From Enterococcus malodoratus ATCC 43197 (GTDB lineage: Bacteria; Bacillota; Bacilli; Lactobacillales; Enterococcaceae): a stretch of DNA of 64,000 nucleotides. Position 1 is the first letter of the stretch; each line of letters opens with the position of its first letter. This document shows positions 3,367 through 28,964 of the stretch, one piece after another. The translations under genes and the position numbers were made by a program. Below the pieces are notes generated by a model that searched no databases, was not told the DNA's origin, and saw only the letters and a program-made list of their open reading frames with translations. Location: positions 558,001 through 622,000 of the forward strand of contig NZ_KE136482.1 of NCBI RefSeq assembly GCF_000407185.1, given 5' to 3'.

Positions 3367-3632
3367 AAACAAAAAACGCCCCTTTGTCATTCGACAAAGG
3401 GACGGATCAGACCGTGTTACCACCCAAATTCGTATTATATAAAATACCTCGACAGTTCCAAAAAGAAACTCGGTGAGGTAACGGTCACTGCCGTCTAACA
3501 AGCGTTAACCCGTTAGAAAACTCAGAGCTCATCTTCATTGAGTTTGCCGTATCCTCTTTCTCACCAGCCGAGGTCTCTGTATCAAGCAGCGTCAATTACT
3601 CTTCTCTTCAACGTTCTATTATTTAAATCAAT
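3367..3632 (-). promoter_or_regulatory. T-box leader, probably methionine-tRNA responsive
   Basis: The leader RNA upstream of the patB-like gene carries the T-box core GGGTGGTAACACGG (about 3408-3425, reading the minus strand) that pairs with the acceptor end of uncharged tRNA, followed by a terminator hairpin. Upstream is a typical Stem I region with an AGTAATTGACGCTGCTTG start and a GGTGAGAAAGAGGAT segment. Two AUG triplets (3538-3536 and 3532-3530) lie where the specifier loop is expected, in agreement with the methionine genes downstream. The exact specifier was not fixed by folding. Confidence 0.88.
3369..3405 (-). terminator. T-box regulated terminator
   Basis: Perfect stem CCCTTTGTC / GACAAAGGG with a four-base loop, followed by GCGTTTTTTG on the minus strand. 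It is mutually exclusive with the T-box antiterminator and so controls read-through into patB-metI-lysR. Confidence 0.85.
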
Positions 3633-18819: not shown

Positions 18820-19716
18820 GTGACAATTGATGAATCCAACGTAGATTCCGCGTTGCTTTTAAAAAAATACGTGCGGGATAAGCGCGTGTTAGACGTATCT
18901 GAAATCCAAAAGCTTTTAGAAAATTCAGAGGTCCTCGCTAAAATTTTGGCGGAGCCTTATCGTACAGATACTTTTACAGGGCTGCGCAAACTAGAATTTT
19001 TATTAATCGAACTATCAGAAATCCCCTATTTCGAACGCATGGAGCAAGTCCAAACAATGTTAGAAACGCTGCACTGCTATACAAATTACGCTGAAGGTTT
19101 TTCATTAACGGGAAAACAATCCGGCGTTTTAGCCTGCCACAATGCGATTTGCACATTGATTTTCCTGCGCGCCGAGAAAAAAGAATGGGCGGAAAAAGGG
19201 ATTCAATGGATCATTTCTTATTTTCCATTCGATAAGAATATTGCTTCAAACTGGCATGGCAAGGATCTCTTTCATCGTTTTGGCGGATGTGTTGGGAATT
19301 CTCCCTGCTGTGATGGTTTAGTCAAATCGGTTAAAGCTCTTTCAGAGTATACCGCTAAATACGGCGATTATCCTGAATTGAAAATAAAATTGCAGCAAGG
19401 ATTAGACTATATTTTGGAGCATCGCGTTATTTTTCATCAAAACAGCGATGAGTATTTATATGATGATTTAATCACGCTTTTCTATCCTTACCCCTATCGT
19501 ACGAATATTATTGAAGCATTAGGCGTTATGAAGACAGAGGATTTCTTGGATCGTGCTGAATGCCAGGCAGCCTTAGACTATTTGAAAGAAAAGCAACAGG
19601 ATAATGGTTTTTGGCAATCTGAAAAGATTTTTATGAAGAGTTCCTGGATTCCTTTTGATCCAATCAAAAAGCCCGGCACATGGATTACTGCTGAAATTGA
19701 ATGGCTCTTAGAATAA
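18820..19716 (+). CDS. Squalene-cyclase/prenyltransferase-like alpha-alpha toroid protein, function unknown
   Basis: 298-residue soluble protein starting at GTG 18820 (AGGTG upstream). The C-terminal pattern PYPYRTNIIEALGVM...QAALDYLKEKQQDNGFWQ resembles the QW-like repeats of alpha-alpha toroid terpenoid cyclases. A cysteine-rich FGGCVGNSPCCDG segment lies near residue 155. The DxDD or DxDDTA acid motif of true cyclases was not seen, so catalysis of that type is doubtful. It stands alone between a divergent kinase gene and a convergent Pnu-type transporter gene. Confidence 0.6.
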   Translation: MTIDESNVDSALLLKKYVRDKRVLDVSEIQKLLENSEVLAKILAEPYRTDTFTGLRKLEFLLIELSEIPYFERMEQVQTMLETLHCYTNYAEGFSLTGKQSGVLACHNAICTLIFLRAEKKEWAEKGIQWIISYFPFDKNIASNWHGKDLFHRFGGCVGNSPCCDGLVKSVKALSEYTAKYGDYPELKIKLQQGLDYILEHRVIFHQNSDEYLYDDLITLFYPYPYRTNIIEALGVMKTEDFLDRAECQAALDYLKEKQQDNGFWQSEKIFMKSSWIPFDPIKKPGTWITAEIEWLLE

Positions 19717-20568: not shown

Positions 20569-21276
20569 CTAAAAAATACCTTTTTCAATATTCCCAGTTG
20601 AATAATAGCTGGAGTGTTTAGGCTCCTGAAGATTCAATTTGTTTGTCTCTTCCTTGATCTGTTTGATCACTGTCTCGGCTGCTTGCGGATCAGCCACAAA
20701 ATCGTAACGGTCTCCGTCAATCTGAATTTTCGGACAGATATCAAAATTGTCATACCATTGCTGGTAGCGTTCGTTGACCATTCGATAATAGTCGTACAGC
20801 TCAGGATTCGCGGCGATTTGTTCATAATCACGTCCGCGTTTTTCGATCCGATCCAGCATCACATCAAAAGAAACCTTGATATGAACTAGCAGATCCGGTC
20901 TTTTTTTCGGTGCGGTGTGCTCCAATTCCTTTAACATCGTATCCAGTAAATTGTCGTATTGCAGCACCTCATCTTGACTTACCCGACCAAGATCGGCATT
21001 TAAGTGAAACAGCAGACTGTCCTCATAAATTGAACGGTCCAGCACATTATCTGCTTGTTTTAAGGCATCCTTCATCGCCAAAAAACGTTTATTTAAAAAG
21101 AATATTTGTAATAGAAATGTGTATTTTTCTGGATTCGAGTAAAACAATGGCAGTACTTCGTTATCATCCACGTTCTCATAAAATGGTTTTGAGTTCATTT
21201 CCTGCGACAACATATCTGTCAAACTGCTTTTACCCGCACCGATCGTGCCAGCTATTAATAGCATCGTTTCATCCAT
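20569..21276 (-). CDS. Deoxynucleoside kinase (dAK/dGK type)
   Basis: 235-residue kinase of the deoxynucleoside kinase family, phosphorylating imported deoxyadenosine, deoxyguanosine or deoxycytidine. The P-loop is GTIGAGKSSL (8-17); the substrate-binding ENVDDNEVLP, the DRS motif in VLDRSIYEDSLLF and the LID arginines in RIEKRGRDYE are all visible. The first ATG (21276) abuts AGAAGGG; the Met five codons in (MLLIAG) is an alternative start with better spacing. It is first gene of the kinase-Pnu operon, with a consensus NrdR box 110 bases upstream. Confidence 0.88.
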   Translation of the reverse strand: MDETMLLIAGTIGAGKSSLTDMLSQEMNSKPFYENVDDNEVLPLFYSNPEKYTFLLQIFFLNKRFLAMKDALKQADNVLDRSIYEDSLLFHLNADLGRVSQDEVLQYDNLLDTMLKELEHTAPKKRPDLLVHIKVSFDVMLDRIEKRGRDYEQIAANPELYDYYRMVNERYQQWYDNFDICPKIQIDGDRYDFVADPQAAETVIKQIKEETNKLNLQEPKHSSYYSTGNIEKGIF

Positions 21277-21385
21277 CCCTTCTCAATAACTAATTATTTC
21301 TTTTAAATCCTTGATAATAGTACTCCTAAATTTTTTTGAAGTAAAGTCTAGATTTTGTGTGTTTTTAGTGATATGTAAATAAACA

Positions 21386-21401
21386 ACACAATATATAGTG
21401 T
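21386..21401. promoter_or_regulatory. NrdR box upstream of the deoxynucleoside kinase operon
   Basis: ACACAATATATAGTGT matches the published NrdR consensus (ACAC-W-ATATAT-W-GTGT) at all 16 positions; it extends to CAACAC / GTGTTG arms. A minus-strand TATATT inside the box, 17 bases after TTATTC, could be the -10. A second NrdR box is expected about 31 bases away; only a half-match (TAGTGA, 21366-21371) is seen there. NrdR represses ribonucleotide reductase genes when dATP is high. Confidence 0.8.
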
Positions 21402-21449: not shown

Positions 21450-21482
21450 AAAAAAACCTCAATGCTCAAGCAAAGAGGTTTT
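21450..21482 (-). terminator. Terminator of the deglycase PTS operon
   Basis: On the minus strand AAAACCTC and GAGGTTTT enclose an inner hairpin (GCTTGAGC) and are followed by TTTTA, six bases after the last SIS gene. Confidence 0.8.
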
Positions 21483-21488
21483 CCGTGA

Positions 21489-22493
21489 TTAATAATCAAA
21501 CTGACGATAGTAACGACGAATGTCCAAAGGATGACAATTCAGTTTTTCAACATGAGCATCGATTCGTTGAGTCACACAATGCATTAATAAGTGCGGCAAG
21601 ACTCTGCCGCGATTTTTTTCACTGATGCCTTCGATCGGATAATCCTTTGAGTCAATCAATGTATAGTTTCCACAGATACGCGGCAACAAATTTTTCACTC
21701 GTTCCGCCAATGGACGCTGCTCATCTTCGCCCAAGAATAGCGTTACTGCTGTTGTTTCATCAACAATTTCCAATGTACCATGCAAGAATTCTGCTGCATG
21801 GATTGATTTCGAACGCAGCCAGCTTTGCTCTTCCCAGTAGCACATTGCATAAGAGTATACGGCTCCCCATTGATTTCCGGCACCAATAAAGTAATGCATC
21901 GCGTCATGGCGATGTTTTTCAGCAAACTCACGACCAAAGTCATCCGCTTGTTTTTCTGCTTCAACAAGCCCTTTCGCTAGAGATTGTTCCAACTCACCAT
22001 AGTATTCTGCATAATCAGGAAAGTCGCCATTGTTCTTCAGCAGACGATCCGCCGCCATAAAGAATTTAATCTGCTCTGTTCCCGGTGCAGGATAGATGAT
22101 GACATGATCGCAGCTTTCAGCTAAGCTTGTTCCCGCTGTGTCAACAAAACCAAGTAACGTTGCCCCCACCTTTTTGATTTCATTGACTGCTTTTACCACT
22201 TCTTCGGTTGTTCCTGTCACAGAGGAAAGAATCACCAACGAATCTTTGGTCAGTCTTCGGTTGCCTGTCGTATAGTATTCCGCCGCATGCTGCACATAGA
22301 CAGGTAAATCACTGCGTCCATTGACATAGGTTACCGCCTGCATAGCCGAAGCATAAGTTCCGCCAATCCCTAAGTAAAAAATATTGTCGTAGCCTTTTTC
22401 CCAAACCTCATCAATGATTTTTTCTACCTGCGGACGTAATTCCAACGCGCCTTGAATATCCTCAATCTGTTGCTGCTCATCAAATTTCAACAT
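21489..22493 (-). CDS. SIS-domain deglycase, FrlB-like (fructoselysine-6-phosphate deglycase type)
   Basis: 334-residue protein with two SIS domains (about 40-165 and 190-310). It is like FrlB, which splits fructoselysine 6-phosphate into glucose 6-phosphate and lysine. The first SIS domain shows YLGIGGTYASAMQ and the Ser/Thr-rich SSVTGTTEEV phosphate loop. The C-terminal AAEFLHGTLEIVD, FLGEDEQRPLAERV and RRYY ending match FrlB landmarks (EFRHGPLEIVE, ERRYY). It is the last gene of the PTS operon, 19 bases after a second SIS gene. In E. faecium and Salmonella such pairs cover fructoselysine- and glucoselysine-6-phosphate; which of the two this gene handles is inferred from resemblance. Confidence 0.8.
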   Translation of the reverse strand: MLKFDEQQQIEDIQGALELRPQVEKIIDEVWEKGYDNIFYLGIGGTYASAMQAVTYVNGRSDLPVYVQHAAEYYTTGNRRLTKDSLVILSSVTGTTEEVVKAVNEIKKVGATLLGFVDTAGTSLAESCDHVIIYPAPGTEQIKFFMAADRLLKNNGDFPDYAEYYGELEQSLAKGLVEAEKQADDFGREFAEKHRHDAMHYFIGAGNQWGAVYSYAMCYWEEQSWLRSKSIHAAEFLHGTLEIVDETTAVTLFLGEDEQRPLAERVKNLLPRICGNYTLIDSKDYPIEGISEKNRGRVLPHLLMHCVTQRIDAHVEKLNCHPLDIRRYYRQFDY

Positions 22494-22512
22494 GTCATAA
22501 ACTCCTCAACTT

Positions 22513-23568
22513 TTATATTTTACTTTTTAATACAGAATCAAAATCATCAAAAATTCGTTTACTCAAATCAATTCCTTTTACCGTTGCGGTACGATAGGCG
22601 ATCAATTGGAAAGGAATGATCAGTAATAATGGAGAGAACATCTCCGAAATAGTGACATCTAAGCCTAAAACAGCGGCATCCGAACTTTTTTCCGTCGTGA
22701 CTTTTAAGATTTTTCCGACATAACTGTCCATGTAATCTGCTAATGCTTGCGATCGACTTTGGTTTACGCTAGGCGTTTCGATGAAGAATAATGTATGCTC
22801 CCAATCAGCTTCCAGATAAGGCCCGTGCATATACGCTTCTAATTCAAAGCCTTGACTTGGGCGGCGAACTGTTTCAGTGAACTTTGTTTCAAATTCCTTC
22901 GCCACACCCCAGTTTGGTCCGTAGCCCAACGCCACAAAACGACCGCCAAGTTTCAGCAGATTTTCGTGATGCTCAAAAAAAGCATTGGACTTATCGATCA
23001 CACTTTGAATGTTGCTGATTATTTCCAGTAACTCTTGCTTCAACTCTGCCAATCGCTGCTCATCGATCTGATTTTTCGAAACGCCGACTTTGATCGCCAA
23101 CAGGATCAATTGCATAACTGTCGCTGAAAATCCTTTCGTAACAAATCCGACTGTTTCAATGCCCATATTCAAATCGATTACCTTATTGACCACCTGAGCA
23201 ATCGGACTCGTTAAATCACTGGTTAAAACGATCCGTTGAATCTCACTTTTATGCGGATTCTGCATAGCATCGATCGTAGACGCACTTTTTCCGCTTTGTG
23301 AGACACCGATAATCGTATCCGTTCCTTTGATCAATCGACCATAATGATTGAAATTATAGGGCTCCTCGATCGTGATGCTGACATCAGCGAGTTTTTCGAA
23401 AGCAATTTTAGCCGATAAACAGGCATTAAAGGAGGAGCCAGTCGCCAAGACCGTTACGGTGCCCATCTTGGCTAAACTTGGATCACTAGAAAAATCATAC
23501 ATCTGCAAAATGTTCGTCAATGTCTCCTGCTCTTGATTGATATAATCAAACATCGTCATCGTTGTCAT
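22513..23568 (-). CDS. SIS-domain deglycase, second of the pair (glucoselysine-6-phosphate type suspected)
   Basis: 351-residue double-SIS protein related to the isomerase half of GlmS. The sugar-phosphate loops read ATGSSFNACLSAK (about 41-53) and VSQSGKSASTID (about 89-100). A catalytic-type Glu lies in FELEAYMHGPYLE, where GlmS-type proteins have the E-x(n)-K-HGP segment. It lacks the glutaminase domain of GlmS, so it is not an aminotransferase but a deglycase or deaminase. The order after the PTS genes matches the gfrABCD-EF arrangement. The start at 23568 has GGAGG six bases before it. Substrate assignment is an inference. Confidence 0.75.
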   Translation of the reverse strand: MTTMTMFDYINQEQETLTNILQMYDFSSDPSLAKMGTVTVLATGSSFNACLSAKIAFEKLADVSITIEEPYNFNHYGRLIKGTDTIIGVSQSGKSASTIDAMQNPHKSEIQRIVLTSDLTSPIAQVVNKVIDLNMGIETVGFVTKGFSATVMQLILLAIKVGVSKNQIDEQRLAELKQELLEIISNIQSVIDKSNAFFEHHENLLKLGGRFVALGYGPNWGVAKEFETKFTETVRRPSQGFELEAYMHGPYLEADWEHTLFFIETPSVNQSRSQALADYMDSYVGKILKVTTEKSSDAAVLGLDVTISEMFSPLLLIIPFQLIAYRTATVKGIDLSKRIFDDFDSVLKSKI

Positions 23569-23583
23569 ACTAATCCTCCATTC

Positions 23584-24411
23584 TTAAAAGAGACCGATCC
23601 ATGAACCTAGGATGCCGAAAATAGCTAATCCTAGTAAAATAGTCAGTGCCTTCACTTCTTTTTTTAATAGATAAAAGACAGCGCCAAAAGCTCCAAGGGA
23701 TAGGATTCTTGGTACGATATCATCAAAAATACTTTGAACCGTCACTGCGTTTTCACCTGTACCGATCTTCAATGGAATATTAATATCGATCATGGATGCG
23801 GTCATCCCGCCCACGACCATCAACCCGATGATTGAGGCGCCAAGTGTCAAACTGCCCATCATGCCATTTTCCTGGATTTTCTTTAAAAAGCCTGTTCCAA
23901 GCTTATAACCCCAAGATGTAGCGAAATAACGGAACAATAAATGGGGGATATTAAAGATCAAGACAAATAAAATCGGGCCTAAAATATTTCCCTGCACTGC
24001 CAGCGACGTTCCCACACCAGTAGCGATCAAACGCAGTGTGCCCCAAAAGAATGAGTCGCCGATCCCAGCCAATGGTCCCATCAGCGAGGTCTTGATATTA
24101 TCAATTGTGGAAACATCAAAATTGGCATCATTGGCGTTCTCTTCCTCCATCGCCGCATTGATCCCTAAGATCAACGTCACGATATGCGGTGTCGTGTTAA
24201 AGAATTCCAAATGACGCTTCAAAGCAGAGGACATACTTTCTTTGGTTCTATATAATTTTTTCAGGATTGGAATCATTGCGTAGCAGTAGGCGAGATTCAT
24301 TTGACGTTCATAATTCCATGAGAATTCCATTTGGAATGACCGCCAAAATACCTTACTCAAATCCTTCTTCGTGATCTTCAATTCCTTATTTTCATTAGAA
24401 GTCATCATCAT
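23584..24411 (-). CDS. PTS mannose-family IID component
   Basis: 275-residue IID subunit of a mannose-class PTS permease, which forms the membrane channel with IIC. The N-terminal LSKVFWRSFQMEFSWNYERQ, the middle LMGPLAGIGDSFFWGTLR and the C-terminal helices are typical. The start is the ATG at 24411, six bases after GGGAGG; the preceding in-frame codon is TTG. It overlaps the IIC gene by 17 bases, which implies translational coupling. With IIA, IIB, IIC and two SIS deglycases it most resembles the GfrD protein of glucoselysine/fructoselysine uptake. Confidence 0.92.
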   Translation of the reverse strand: MMMTSNENKELKITKKDLSKVFWRSFQMEFSWNYERQMNLAYCYAMIPILKKLYRTKESMSSALKRHLEFFNTTPHIVTLILGINAAMEEENANDANFDVSTIDNIKTSLMGPLAGIGDSFFWGTLRLIATGVGTSLAVQGNILGPILFVLIFNIPHLLFRYFATSWGYKLGTGFLKKIQENGMMGSLTLGASIIGLMVVGGMTASMIDINIPLKIGTGENAVTVQSIFDDIVPRILSLGAFGAVFYLLKKEVKALTILLGLAIFGILGSWIGLF

Positions 24412-25183
24412 CAACTACCTCCCCTGTTGACGTTTGTGCACTATTATTCTGTCCACCACGTACATTCATAATATTCACGACAACAACCGCTACGATCGCA
24501 CCAAAAATAGCGATTCCAGTAACCGGAATTTCTAAGTAAGCCGCCAAAGCGAAGCCTAAGAAGAAATACGGCGCGACTTGTTTGTTGATCAATAAACGTG
24601 CCAGCATCGCGAACCCGAGTGCCGGGATCAATCCCGTAGCTACCGATAAACCGTGTTGAATAAACGCTGGAATCATATCTAATAAATTCCCGACCGTTTT
24701 GCTTCCAACCATGAATGAGATCATAACCACTAAACCAAGCATCAACGATAGTCCAAAGCCGGCTGTCAAATGCATCCGTTCGACACCTTTATAATCGCCA
24801 TTTTCCGCATATTTATCGGCTTTTTGGTTCATGACAGGAATCATGATTCCTAAGTAAATATTTTTCAAAATCAATGTTAGTGTCGCGATCGGCAGTCCAA
24901 GTAACAAAGCAGTCTCCGTACCCGCACCAGCCGTAATCGCGAAAGCTGTTCCTAAAACGCCGCCAGTAACGACATCGGGCGGAATCGCTGCGCCTACAGA
25001 AAACGAACCAATAAATGCTAATTCCAATGTCGCACCCATGATAATTCCAGCCTTCATATCTCCCAGTACGATCCCGGTAAATAATCCGGTAACGATTGGG
25101 CGAGATAAAAGCGAGGTTCCTAACGCGTACTCAGATTGAGCGATAAAGGCAACTAACCCAAGTAAAATTGCTTGAAAGAGCAT
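24395..25183 (-). CDS. PTS mannose-family IIC component
   Basis: 262-residue IIC subunit with about eight hydrophobic segments. FIAQSEYALGTSLLSRPIV at the N-terminus and the Gly-rich GASFSVGAAIPPDVVTGG-type stretch (here GSFSVGAAIPPDVVTGG) are family landmarks and contribute the sugar-binding site. The C-terminus ends in an acidic VVDDDDF tail that overlaps the IID start. The ribosome site is weak (AAAGG). The gene sits 19 bases after IIB in the operon. Confidence 0.92.
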   Translation of the reverse strand: MLFQAILLGLVAFIAQSEYALGTSLLSRPIVTGLFTGIVLGDMKAGIIMGATLELAFIGSFSVGAAIPPDVVTGGVLGTAFAITAGAGTETALLLGLPIATLTLILKNIYLGIMIPVMNQKADKYAENGDYKGVERMHLTAGFGLSLMLGLVVMISFMVGSKTVGNLLDMIPAFIQHGLSVATGLIPALGFAMLARLLINKQVAPYFFLGFALAAYLEIPVTGIAIFGAIVAVVVVNIMNVRGGQNNSAQTSTGEVVDDDDF

Positions 25184-25202
25184 ATTTCTTCAACCTTTCT
25201 TT

Positions 25203-25673
25203 TTAAAGAACTTCAGTGACAGCGACTTTTTTATCTGTCGGGACTTGGCGAATTTCAACCTCGATCCCGTGATCAACCATTTCCTTCAATAAGACTTCCT
25301 CTTCCGGCAAGACATTCACCGCTTTTCCAATACTGCGCGTCCCTTCTTTGGCTTTGATCCCGCCTAAATTGATTTTTTGGATCTCCGGATGGGAGTCAGC
25401 TAATTTTTTCGCATCAGCGATAGACTCCACTACGATAAATAATTTGTACTTGTCGGTTACTCCGCTTTGTAATGCCGCAATCGAATCTTCGATGTTTTTG
25501 ATAACCAATTTTACGCCCTGGGGTTTAGCCAGCTTGATGGTCGTCTTTCGAATCTCATTTACTGGAACATCATCGTTAGCGATCAGAATACAATCCGCTC
25601 CCAAACCTTGAGTCCAAGAAAAGGCTACTTGTCCATGCAGCAAACGATGGTCTACTCTTGTTAATAAAATCAT
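25203..25673 (-). CDS. PTS mannose-family IIB component
   Basis: 156-residue cytoplasmic IIB domain. The phosphorylated histidine is in the N-terminal RVDHRLLHGQVAFSW segment (the HGQV His, about residue 14). It carries phosphate from IIA-His to the sugar. The start at 25673 has AGGAGG seven bases upstream. It is transcribed with the adjacent IIA, IIC and IID genes. Confidence 0.92.
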   Translation of the reverse strand: MILLTRVDHRLLHGQVAFSWTQGLGADCILIANDDVPVNEIRKTTIKLAKPQGVKLVIKNIEDSIAALQSGVTDKYKLFIVVESIADAKKLADSHPEIQKINLGGIKAKEGTRSIGKAVNVLPEEEVLLKEMVDHGIEVEIRQVPTDKKVAVTEVL

Positions 25674-25693
25674 TTTTCTTCCTCCTATGCTTT

Positions 25694-26116
25694 TTAAAAA
25701 TCTTCTTCCTCTATCTCACTGCTGATTAATTGGTTACAAAATTGAATCGATTGTTTAGCCGTTGTCAAAGTCGTTTCAATCAGCTTAGAAAGTGAATCAA
25801 CTAGCTGAAACTGCATCGCAAATTCAACCAAAAAGGGCAAGTTCATCCCAGCAACTAAATAGAAGTCCGCTCGATTAATATGTGCTAAAAATTCATTATT
25901 CACACTGCCTCCAAACAAATCTGTCACAACCACTAATTCATGATCACGATGACGTTCCATTATTTCACTGACCGCTTTTTCCAAATCAAAATCTTCTGTT
26001 AGATAGCAATCTAGCGTTTCGATGGGAGTAATTCCTCCGCAAATCAGCCTTAATGAAGAGTTCATTCCTGATGCTAATTTTCCATGTGATGCCAGAACTA
26101 GCTTTCTTTCCAACAT
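25694..26116 (-). CDS. PTS mannose-family IIA component
   Basis: 140-residue stand-alone IIA domain. The phosphorylated His is in VLASHGKLASGM (about residue 11), and VVTDLFGGSVNNEF is the conserved active-site loop. It is first gene of the PTS operon. A sigma-54 promoter lies about 36 bases before its start codon, at 26152-26167, and GCGAGGTG is the ribosome site. It receives phosphate from HPr. By context it is the counterpart of GfrA. Confidence 0.92.
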   Translation of the reverse strand: MLERKLVLASHGKLASGMNSSLRLICGGITPIETLDCYLTEDFDLEKAVSEIMERHRDHELVVVTDLFGGSVNNEFLAHINRADFYLVAGMNLPFLVEFAMQFQLVDSLSKLIETTLTTAKQSIQFCNQLISSEIEEEDF

Positions 26117-26148
26117 TTTTCACCTCGCAATCTGTCTACACTTTAATA

Positions 26149-26190
26149 AAAGCAAGCGGCGTGCCAACTTTAGTGGCGCACCGCTTGCTT
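26149..26190 (-). terminator. Hairpin after the activator gene, overlapping the sigma-54 promoter
   Basis: Arms AAGCAAGCGG (26151-26160) and CCGCTTGCTT (26181-26190) are perfectly complementary, extended by imperfect CGTGCCA / TGGCGCA around a seven-base loop. On the minus strand it ends in TTTTATT, so it can terminate the activator transcript. Confidence 0.7.
26152..26167 (-). promoter_or_regulatory. Sigma-54 (-24/-12) promoter of the PTS-deglycase operon
   Basis: The minus strand reads TGGCACGCCGCTTGCT, a complete match to the RpoN consensus TGGCACG-N4-TTGCW, with GG and GC at the required spacing. The predicted start is near 26141, about 25 bases before the IIA start codon. A LevR-type sigma-54 activator gene ends 26 bases upstream. 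The promoter lies within one arm of an inverted repeat (26151-26190). Confidence 0.9.
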
Positions 26191-26192
26191 TG

Positions 26193-28964
26193 CTAAAATT
26201 CTTCATCTTTCATCGCTGAATCTGTATTTTTATAAACAATATCAAAAATATAGGCGAGCTCAGAATCTGGGATCGTGACACTATAATCTCGCTCAATGAC
26301 ACTAAATGCCTGTTTAATGTTTTTCAGCAGTTCTTTTTGACACTGATACAAATCCGAGTAACCATCATACGTTTCAATCGGAACATTTCGAATGAGGCGT
26401 TCAATCAAACAGCTGACATGAACATACAATGCGAGTTTTTTTGCATTGGACAACTGAATCTTTCCAGCCAGCTCTAAATCACGCATAAATAGATCAATCT
26501 CACTCATGACCTTATCGGTATCTAGAATCGTCACAGAATCGATCACTTTTTCCAGAGAAAAATTACGAATCACATTGGTATTAAATATTTGATTTTCTTC
26601 TGAAGTCATCACTGGGGCCAACCACTCAGTCAGAACTTGCTGCTCATCGCCTGAGATTAATTCTTCCAAAGACAAATACGGGATTTCTGCGACCTGTGGA
26701 TCATCGGTCCCGATAATTCCAAGAACGTCATAGATTGAAAAGACTGTCTCCTCCTGCTTCTTTTCTGCTAAAACCCGGAATTCGTACGGAACGATTTTTA
26801 GTTCACAGGAGTTCGGCAAACTTTTTTCCAATAAATGACAAATCTGCGCAGCAGTCCCAATCCCCGTTTGACATGTTGTTAGCAGCGTCTTCGTTCGATT
26901 TTCTTCTGGATAAATAATTTCCCAATCAAATGTCGCTTCCGCCGCCGATTTGCTGGCTATTTCGTTCAATGTTCGCTGCTGCTTGATATTTTCTCCGATT
27001 GCAATTGCCAACGGGGTGGTGACATTGTTCATGATCACGATCGGCACGTTGATTTGTTTAGGGAAATATTGGTAAATTTCTTTTAGACTGCCCATATCGA
27101 CCAAAATCACTAGCCCGTTTGAAATATCATTATTTTCGCTGTAATCCAGAATTTCTTCCGCAATTTGTTGCGGCGTCACATCCAATGGCATATCGAAAGA
27201 CTCAAAAATATCATTTTCCAAAAATCGATTGGCTACATTGGCAATACTGCTGGCGGTCGCATAGCCATGGGCGACAATTACGGCCTTAGCTATTCCTTGT
27301 TCTTTGATCCAATCGGCCTTTTTTAAATACAAAGTCAAAACAATCCGATCCATCGCGGATATTTCAATGTCGATCTTAGGCCTGCACATTTCCAAGATTC
27401 TCTGAACATAGTGATAACTTGCAGGATAGGCCTCGGAGATTTGTCTTTCCAATTGTCGAATCAATTCACGAATATGAGGATCTTCTGGCAACCAGCGTCC
27501 AGCGCCTCTTTGAAATAAGTAATAGCCTACCGCATAAACACTGTTTCCATTAAATTTGATCTGATACGCACTTTCCATTTGACGAAAAGTCTCACGCACA
27601 TATTGTGTCAGATACAGCAGCATTTCATGCTTCTGCTGACGATCCGTTTCAAAAAGCAGATAATCAAACAACTGATCCACAAGCTCTTTCAGCTTTAGCT
27701 GGCAATCCACTAGTTGCCCCTGCGCATCTTGATACGCCAAAATCATTTTAGCAAACGAATCCTCCACTCTTTTTTGACTTTGAGTATTCGTCAGCATTAA
27801 ATTATCTAGTCTCGAATCACTATGAATCAAAATTTCTGCAGGCAAAGCCGTTTGCATACTTTGATGATTCATTGACAGTAACGCTTCCGGAAGCTGGTAA
27901 ATGGTCAATTTGATTGGCTGATCAGGTTCACTCTCGGATAAAGCTTTCGCGGTCATCACCTTAATAATATTTTTCAACTCACCAATGTTGCCCTTGAAAT
28001 TTCCACTGGCCAAAAGCTCCAGTGTTTGACCACTAATGATCAAATCACGCCGAATTGTAGCTTGTTCATTCAGTAAAAAGGAATAAATCAGTTCTAAACG
28101 CTCATTTCGACCTCTTTGTTGTAAGGAAGGAATGGTTGTTTGAATAGGGATTCGTCGAATAAAAGTGGTTAAAAAATTACTCGTCAGCTCTTCCGTCGTC
28201 GCAAAGAATAATCTTGTATGAACAGTGATTGGATGATTCGTATCCCCCATTCGATAGATTTGACCCTGATCCAAATAGGTGAATAATTTTTCTTGCCCCT
28301 CTGCGTTCAATCGATGAACTTCATCCAAAAACAGGATGCCGCCATCCGCCGCTTCAAAGGCTCCTTTACGATCCGAGTCAGCTCCTGTATAAGACCCTTT
28401 CACGCTCCCGAAAAGATTGCTGGTCAATAGTTCAGGATTATTCGCATACTGAGCACAATTCAACGTAATGAATGGGGCATCTTCAGGCAAAAGTTCCTTT
28501 TGGACACAGTAATGATGAATGAGTTCAACTAAATAGCTCTTCCCCGTACCGCTTTCTCCATTGATCAGAACAGGCAACCCGCCATCAGGATAATTGAGAG
28601 CCGCTTTGATTTGTTCAATCACACGTTTTAAGCTTTTATCATGACCAATCAAAAGTGATAAAAGCTCCTGCTCTTTTCCAAACATCGGCTGCTCAGTTTG
28701 AATAGCACGAACACTTTCATAGTGATTTTCCTTTAAAACAAAAAATTGTTTTTCAAAAGCGCCCTTATGAAAATAATAGACTGGGCGCGAATTTATTTTG
28801 ACTAGCTCGCCGGTCTCAGTTAACTGATTCAAGTATTGGCTCACCGTATTTCGTTTTACTTTAAATATTTCAGCCAACTTCGATGCTGTAAACAATTCAC
28901 TTAAGTCATCCAAGTTGAGAAAAGCGGTTTGATTTTTCAAATACTGCAATAATTCTTCTCTCAT
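26193..28964 (-). CDS. LevR-type sigma-54 activator with PRD and EII domains
   Basis: 923-residue modular activator. In order: N-terminal HTH (about 25-65), AAA+ sigma-54 interaction domain (Walker A GESGTGKS about 135-142; GSVKGSYTGAD, the variant of the GAFTGA loop; Walker B GGILFLDEVHRL), first PRD, a IIA-Man-like domain (VIVAHGYATASS), a IIB-Gat-like domain (TTCQTGIGTAAQ) and a second PRD (HVSCLIERLIRN). Such proteins are controlled by PTS phosphorylation at PRD and EII histidines and drive RpoN promoters. It precedes the PTS operon on the same strand, as gfrR does in Salmonella. A sigma-A promoter lies upstream. Confidence 0.92.
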   Translation of the reverse strand: MREELLQYLKNQTAFLNLDDLSELFTASKLAEIFKVKRNTVSQYLNQLTETGELVKINSRPVYYFHKGAFEKQFFVLKENHYESVRAIQTEQPMFGKEQELLSLLIGHDKSLKRVIEQIKAALNYPDGGLPVLINGESGTGKSYLVELIHHYCVQKELLPEDAPFITLNCAQYANNPELLTSNLFGSVKGSYTGADSDRKGAFEAADGGILFLDEVHRLNAEGQEKLFTYLDQGQIYRMGDTNHPITVHTRLFFATTEELTSNFLTTFIRRIPIQTTIPSLQQRGRNERLELIYSFLLNEQATIRRDLIISGQTLELLASGNFKGNIGELKNIIKVMTAKALSESEPDQPIKLTIYQLPEALLSMNHQSMQTALPAEILIHSDSRLDNLMLTNTQSQKRVEDSFAKMILAYQDAQGQLVDCQLKLKELVDQLFDYLLFETDRQQKHEMLLYLTQYVRETFRQMESAYQIKFNGNSVYAVGYYLFQRGAGRWLPEDPHIRELIRQLERQISEAYPASYHYVQRILEMCRPKIDIEISAMDRIVLTLYLKKADWIKEQGIAKAVIVAHGYATASSIANVANRFLENDIFESFDMPLDVTPQQIAEEILDYSENNDISNGLVILVDMGSLKEIYQYFPKQINVPIVIMNNVTTPLAIAIGENIKQQRTLNEIASKSAAEATFDWEIIYPEENRTKTLLTTCQTGIGTAAQICHLLEKSLPNSCELKIVPYEFRVLAEKKQEETVFSIYDVLGIIGTDDPQVAEIPYLSLEELISGDEQQVLTEWLAPVMTSEENQIFNTNVIRNFSLEKVIDSVTILDTDKVMSEIDLFMRDLELAGKIQLSNAKKLALYVHVSCLIERLIRNVPIETYDGYSDLYQCQKELLKNIKQAFSVIERDYSVTIPDSELAYIFDIVYKNTDSAMKDEEF

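Follow-up and report, generated by a model that had tools for sequence, protein, structure and literature searches.

Inspection of the window, i.e. the whole 64,000-nucleotide stretch of DNA analyzed here, revealed a two-gene operon, dNK-pnuN, encoding a deoxynucleoside kinase (dNK1) and a transporter of the Pnu family. As far as can be predicted from the sequence, this operon is probably a salvage unit that is repressed by NrdR and would serve the import and trapping of deoxynucleosides. Control of dNK-pnuN by NrdR appears very likely, and import of deoxynucleosides by the predicted transporter likely. The cell probably switches the salvage of DNA building blocks together with their synthesis.

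The kinase-transporter operon and its operator

Features of the operon and its upstream region are summarized in Table 1. Both genes lie on the minus strand and are separated by 55 bases, which agrees with a preliminary description of this DNA that placed an NrdR box upstream of co-directional kinase and Pnu genes. The solved protein chains nearest to dNK1 are 8puu (a deoxynucleoside kinase) and 2jas and 2jaq (both deoxyguanosine kinases), and none of the NCBIfam models matched this protein above cut-off.

Table 1. Features of the dNK-pnuN operon and its upstream region (positions in the window).
Feature	Position	Strand	Remarks
Pnu-family transporter, PnuN group, 247 aa	19770..20513	-	PF04973, 1.7e-31
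Deoxynucleoside kinase dNK1, 235 aa	20569..21276	-	PF01712, 1.7e-40; 139.4 bits (cut-off 27)
NrdR box 2 (kinase-proximal), the weaker of the two	21345..21360	-	ACACAAAATCTAGACT; 4 mismatches to the stricter consensus
NrdR box 1 (kinase-distal)	21386..21401	.	palindromic ACACAATATATAGTGT / ACACTATATATTGTGT; 0 mismatches; kept in relatives
Terminator-like hairpin and adjoining T run	21451..21484	-	-15.4 kcal/mol, z -4.1; 0/200 shuffles equally stable

For box matching we used ACACWATATMTWGTGT, which we take to be the NrdR consensus. Box 1 shows 0 mismatches to ACACWATATMTWGTGT on both strands, and only two such perfect boxes are present in the 4.62-Mb genome, one before dNK1 and the other before nrdD; approximately 0.05 would be expected in random sequence (by arithmetic, 40% G+C being assumed). 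The perfect box reported in the preliminary description was thereby confirmed. That description had recognized one box only and overlooked the second: the operator is a pair, in which the distance from box 1 to box 2 (41 bases, start to start) corresponds to a 25-bp spacer. Genome matches with up to three mismatches occur at background level (94/100 versus 94/98 for a reversed-pattern control), so lone weaker sites carry no weight. A broader box pattern likewise performed no better than its control, and one weak pair of places with three mismatches, C1:954310-954357, located inside a reading frame resembling aldehyde dehydrogenase (named by eye), was dismissed. Pairs were scored with a strict consensus, ACACWATATATWGTGT, which penalizes boxes with C/G close to the center, as found in Levilactobacillus.

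The hairpin is located 3′ of the upstream gene encoding a SIS-domain protein, between this gene and the dNK-pnuN operon; it is absent from the output of a stricter terminator scan. Beyond the box only the 3′ end of the SIS gene is found, which makes the kinase-transporter pair the natural target. In a promoter scan of the dNK-pnuN region the sites were no better than the shuffle level, and we infer the promoter position, like the binding of NrdR. The operon leader gave no Rfam match at the gathering score, and two sub-threshold matches were taken as chance; control by a riboswitch was rejected, since neither the leader nor 40 Pnu loci produced an Rfam match at that score.

NrdR and its other sites in the genome

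The genome encodes class Ib and class III ribonucleotide reductases. It also contains a single nrdR gene (C1:85013; TIGR00244, 201.6 bits), whose product has Zn-ribbon and ATP-cone domains. The nrdD, nrdE, nrdH and nrdR genes were identified with family models, the nrdD and nrdE queries being clipped by locus ends. Both the regulator and the reductase sites on which the preliminary description counted are thus present, though the second box of each reductase pair is weak. The boxes before nrdD are 41 bases apart, with 0 and 6 mismatches, and six-mismatch partners occur at further offsets too (+62, +71 and +97). Those before nrdHEF are 31 bases apart, equivalent to a 15-bp spacer, with 2 and 5 mismatches.

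A second deoxynucleoside kinase gene, dNK2, was found elsewhere in the same genome (C1:1656k; L004, 779-1441, minus strand). Its product is 59% identical to dNK1, and the gene sits directly behind its own NrdR-type pair, with the boxes 41 bases apart and 3 mismatches in each. In two relatives of the same genus the dNK2 pairs have spacings of 42 and 41 bases and mismatch sums of 7 and 8, above the strict limit defined below, and two kinase genes from another genus are without an NrdR pair (sums of 14).

Spacers between NrdR boxes are usually 15-16 bp long, and 25-26 bp in most streptococci (PMC12051234). The nrdDG and nrdHEF operators bound by NrdR of Streptococcus pneumoniae are paired boxes with 25-26 bp between them, and the repressor binds best when the boxes are separated by an integer number of helix turns (PMC12051234). 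The dNK-pnuN operator, with its 25-bp spacer and integer number of turns, resembles these sites; unlike the reductase operators described there, it precedes a salvage operon, and in the main text of PMC12051234 words starting with “kinase” or “transporter” do not occur.

The reductase genes of both classes, Ib and III, have the same type of site as dNK-pnuN, so salvage would supplement ribonucleotide reduction and not replace it. The preliminary description, which regarded import as an alternative to reduction, needs to be amended in this respect.

Conservation of the box pair

Two sets of genomes were analyzed for conservation of the operator. Among 295 genomes of the order, a Pnu match was found in 85, of which 36 encode a protein with at least 55% identity to the window transporter (PnuN genomes). 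A locus was available for 34 of these 36 (all except G080 and G118), and G005, which has one internal stop, was excluded from the pair counts. The second set comprised the best 80 of 184 orthologues in named genomes of Enterococcus and Lactobacillaceae, the nearest of these being from E. hulanensis and E. raffinosus (96%), which makes an origin of the window in the Enterococcus avium group probable. Some species are probably represented both among the 80 named loci and among the 33 loci of the order. A degraded remnant in G165 was excluded from PnuN and a fragment in G287 from the PnuC-like group, and genera were assigned by record title, L138 (uncultured Lactobacillus sp.) being counted, as a guess, under Lactiplantibacillus.

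A strict pair was defined by phased spacing and a mismatch sum of at most 6 over both boxes; half-turn spacings provided the off-phase control, and shuffles were Markov resamplings made region by region. Strict phased pairs precede pnuN in 58 of the 80 named orthologues, against 0/80 off phase and 0/1600 shuffles, and in 18 of the 33 order loci, against 0 off phase and 0/660 shuffles. When a sum of 8 is allowed, phased pairs rise to 68/80, with 27/80 off phase, and the control is no longer clean. Over the two sets, the strict spacings fall into clusters at 28-32 and 41-43, and none is found at 33, 35-38 or 45-47. All eight named dNK-pnuN operons have a pair at 41 or 42, and in seven of them the mismatch sum does not exceed 6.

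The 22 named orthologues lacking a strict phased pair are from Levilactobacillus (10 of 11), Secundilactobacillus (2 of 2), Apilactobacillus (2 of 2), Enterococcus (3 of 18) and five others. The pair of E. pseudoavium misses the strict limit narrowly. No NrdR box was found upstream of the pnuN orthologues of E. pallens (L114) and E. sp. 669A (L112), and these genes have possibly escaped from the NrdR regulon. An NrdR pair was found at none of 20 PnuC-like loci, which represent 19 of 31 genomes in a set collected with the window protein and thus missing distant PnuC.

Classification of the transporter

The transporter scores 89 bits with TIGR01528 (cut-off 42.45), so automatic annotation (NCBIfam) would name it PnuC. 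In its structural model (mean pLDDT 74.9), the sole match at E <0.001 is PnuC (4qtn; TM 0.65-0.67). In a tree of 50 Pnu proteins, 13 PnuN rows form a clade of their own (100/100) against the 37 others. The 21 PnuC-like rows, among them PnuC of E. coli, lie outside this clade; several of them are on long branches, and the deeper joins are uncertain. At two alignment sites, which were picked from the same alignment, PnuC-like rows have W (20/21) and N (18/21), while PnuN rows have Y (13/13) and G (12/13), represented in the window transporter by Y179 and G186. Y at the first of these sites is common to 11 of the 13 sister-group rows, and N at position 209 is found only in PnuN among the 50 rows.

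The window transporter thus probably fits the group called PnuN (PMC7749635), as the preliminary description had proposed, its clade being apart from the PnuC-like rows. The predicted system resembles PnuC/NadR (4qtn; PMC7221760) in the fold of its transporter and in its logic, facilitated entry followed by phosphorylation. It differs in the clade, the kinase and the NrdR-type operator, and in the replacement of the W and N typical of PnuC-like proteins.

Partner kinases and further Pnu lineages

A dNK gene is present in all 36 PnuN genomes and in 226 of the 295 genomes overall. Strong NadR matches (E <1e-30) were found in 57 of the 295 genomes (that of G180 being of half length), with 11 passing the curated cut-off, and in none of the 36 PnuN genomes; Fisher tests of such co-occurrence ignore kinship among genomes and are only indicative. 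The genome containing the window also has no strong NadR match (best TIGR01526 hit, E 3.9e-4). A strong NadR match was obtained in 16 of the 31 genomes with PnuC-like hits, and in 13 of these 16, read by eye from the tables, it adjoins the transporter gene.

Neighboring pnu and dNK genes were observed in three arrangements, two of which are under phased NrdR pairs. Kinases in the locus counts were located by their P-loop motif, and none was found in L189. The order dNK-pnuN, accompanied by phased pairs, occurs in 8 of the 80 named and 4 of the 33 order loci, while pnuN-dNK occurs in three of the 33 order loci (L049, L050 and L055) without a pair (sums of 12, 12 and 10). By the motif test, 72 of the 80 named pnuN genes are without a kinase neighbor.

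The third arrangement belongs to a second Pnu lineage (L070, L071, L072 and L178-L184), whose transporters share 26-30% identity with that of the window. All ten genomes, which are of the same family, have a pnu-dNK operon with a phased NrdR pair, and the PnuC-type N is kept in the three rows aligned. It is conceivable, though less likely than not, that the NrdR-dNK module recruited Pnu transporters more than once, in which case deoxynucleoside transport may have arisen twice. The lineage is placed on the PnuN side of the tree with support of 90/87, which is not firm, and this position may instead indicate one older origin.

A further Pnu group (L057-L069; 28-35% identity) has T or S at position 209. 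A strict pair was identified in one of its 13 loci (L062), and L060 and L067 come close, with a sum of 7.

Proposed mechanism and alternative explanations

When dATP is plentiful, NrdR carrying ATP and dATP would bind the box pair, whose members are four helical turns apart, and would shut off dNK-pnuN together with nrdD, nrdHEF and dNK2. When dATP falls, NrdR would leave its sites, and PnuN, acting as a facilitator, would admit deoxynucleosides. These would be phosphorylated by the kinase and, trapped in this way, would feed the dNTP pools.

This reading presupposes that the boxes are a genuine NrdR operator. That they arose by chance or serve another regulator is scarcely conceivable: matches with up to three mismatches are indeed at background level and box 2 is weak, but box 1 is perfect, the pair is phased and kept across genera, and pairs also precede the nrd genes. 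A chance box was rejected on the basis of the genome-wide rarity of perfect boxes and the conservation of phased pairs. The substrate of the transporter is a separate matter. The score above the TIGR01528 cut-off and the fold nearest to PnuC (4qtn) would suit a nicotinamide riboside transporter that lies beside the kinase by chance, yet such a function is very unlikely, given the separate clade, the W-to-Y and N-to-G replacements, the NrdR pair, absent from 20/20 PnuC-like loci, and the lack of strong NadR in this and the 36 PnuN genomes, set against its presence in 16/31 PnuC-like ones. We rejected PnuC function on the grounds of NadR absence, clade and residues, the search having covered NadR rather than stand-alone riboside kinases.

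It is rather unlikely that PnuN is a nucleoside facilitator of broader or other range, accepting ribonucleosides too or restricted to one base, under the same control by NrdR. A dNK gene lies directly ahead of only 8 of the 80 named pnuN genes, and enzymes of the dNK family differ in substrate, which we also count in favor of such a range; control by a sensor of deoxynucleotides and the adjacency of dNK in three arrangements, two with phased pairs, speak against it. The direction of transport could also be questioned, as PnuC operates by facilitated diffusion (PMC7221760), with the direction set by trapping, and PnuN might accordingly let out surplus deoxynucleosides. We regard this as most unlikely, because NrdR, which represses when dATP is high, would shut such an outlet at the very time it is needed, and the adjacent kinase traps inward. 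Import and trapping of deoxynucleosides under NrdR remains the preferred reading.

Earlier reports on PnuN

PMC7749635 credits Rodionov and Gelfand (2005) with the prediction that PnuN of Lactobacillus acidophilus is a deoxynucleoside transporter. The transporter described here resembles that PnuN of lactic acid bacteria in its family and predicted substrate (PMC7749635). It differs in that its gene is second in an operon, behind dNK, and in the pair with a 25-bp spacer that precedes the kinase gene. NrdR is among the regulons of lactic acid bacteria whose peripheral genes differ (PMC3616900). An RNA-seq table for two strains of Levilactobacillus brevis lists an “NrdR-regulated deoxyribonucleotide transporter, PnuC-like” as upregulated (log2 4.67 and 3.22), along with the class II reductase (4.41 and 2.86) (PMC8419935). 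This joint rise is a correlation observed in another species, and most Levilactobacillus loci fail the strict box test.

The idea is therefore already in print, as a prediction (PMC7749635) and as an annotation name with a link to NrdR (PMC8419935). The present analysis adds the dNK-pnuN operon with its 25-bp-spaced boxes, the site before dNK2 and a second lineage of Pnu transporters, and provides comparative support for the known prediction. In the open-access literature searched, we found no direct transport assay of PnuN. With the clade, residues and operons described above, the prediction can be tested directly, and such a test would tell how bacteria balance salvage and ribonucleotide reduction by means of one repressor.

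Surroundings of the operon

Several further features of the window were distinguished. A reading frame of 298 aa (18820-19716, plus strand) is convergent to the dNK-pnuN operon; neither Pfam nor NCBIfam gave a match for it at E 0.001. Beyond the opposite end of the operon, positions 21489-28964 are occupied by a mannose/sorbose-type PTS operon (IIA, IIB, IIC and IID). The SIS-domain enzyme of this operon weakly resembles fructoselysine-6-phosphate deglycase, below the cut-off, and a second SIS-like frame was named by eye. The PTS operon also encodes a regulator of the sigma-54-activator type with PRD. At positions 3395-3620, on the minus strand, a T-box leader (RF00230) was identified with 93.4 bits, just above the gathering score of 93.
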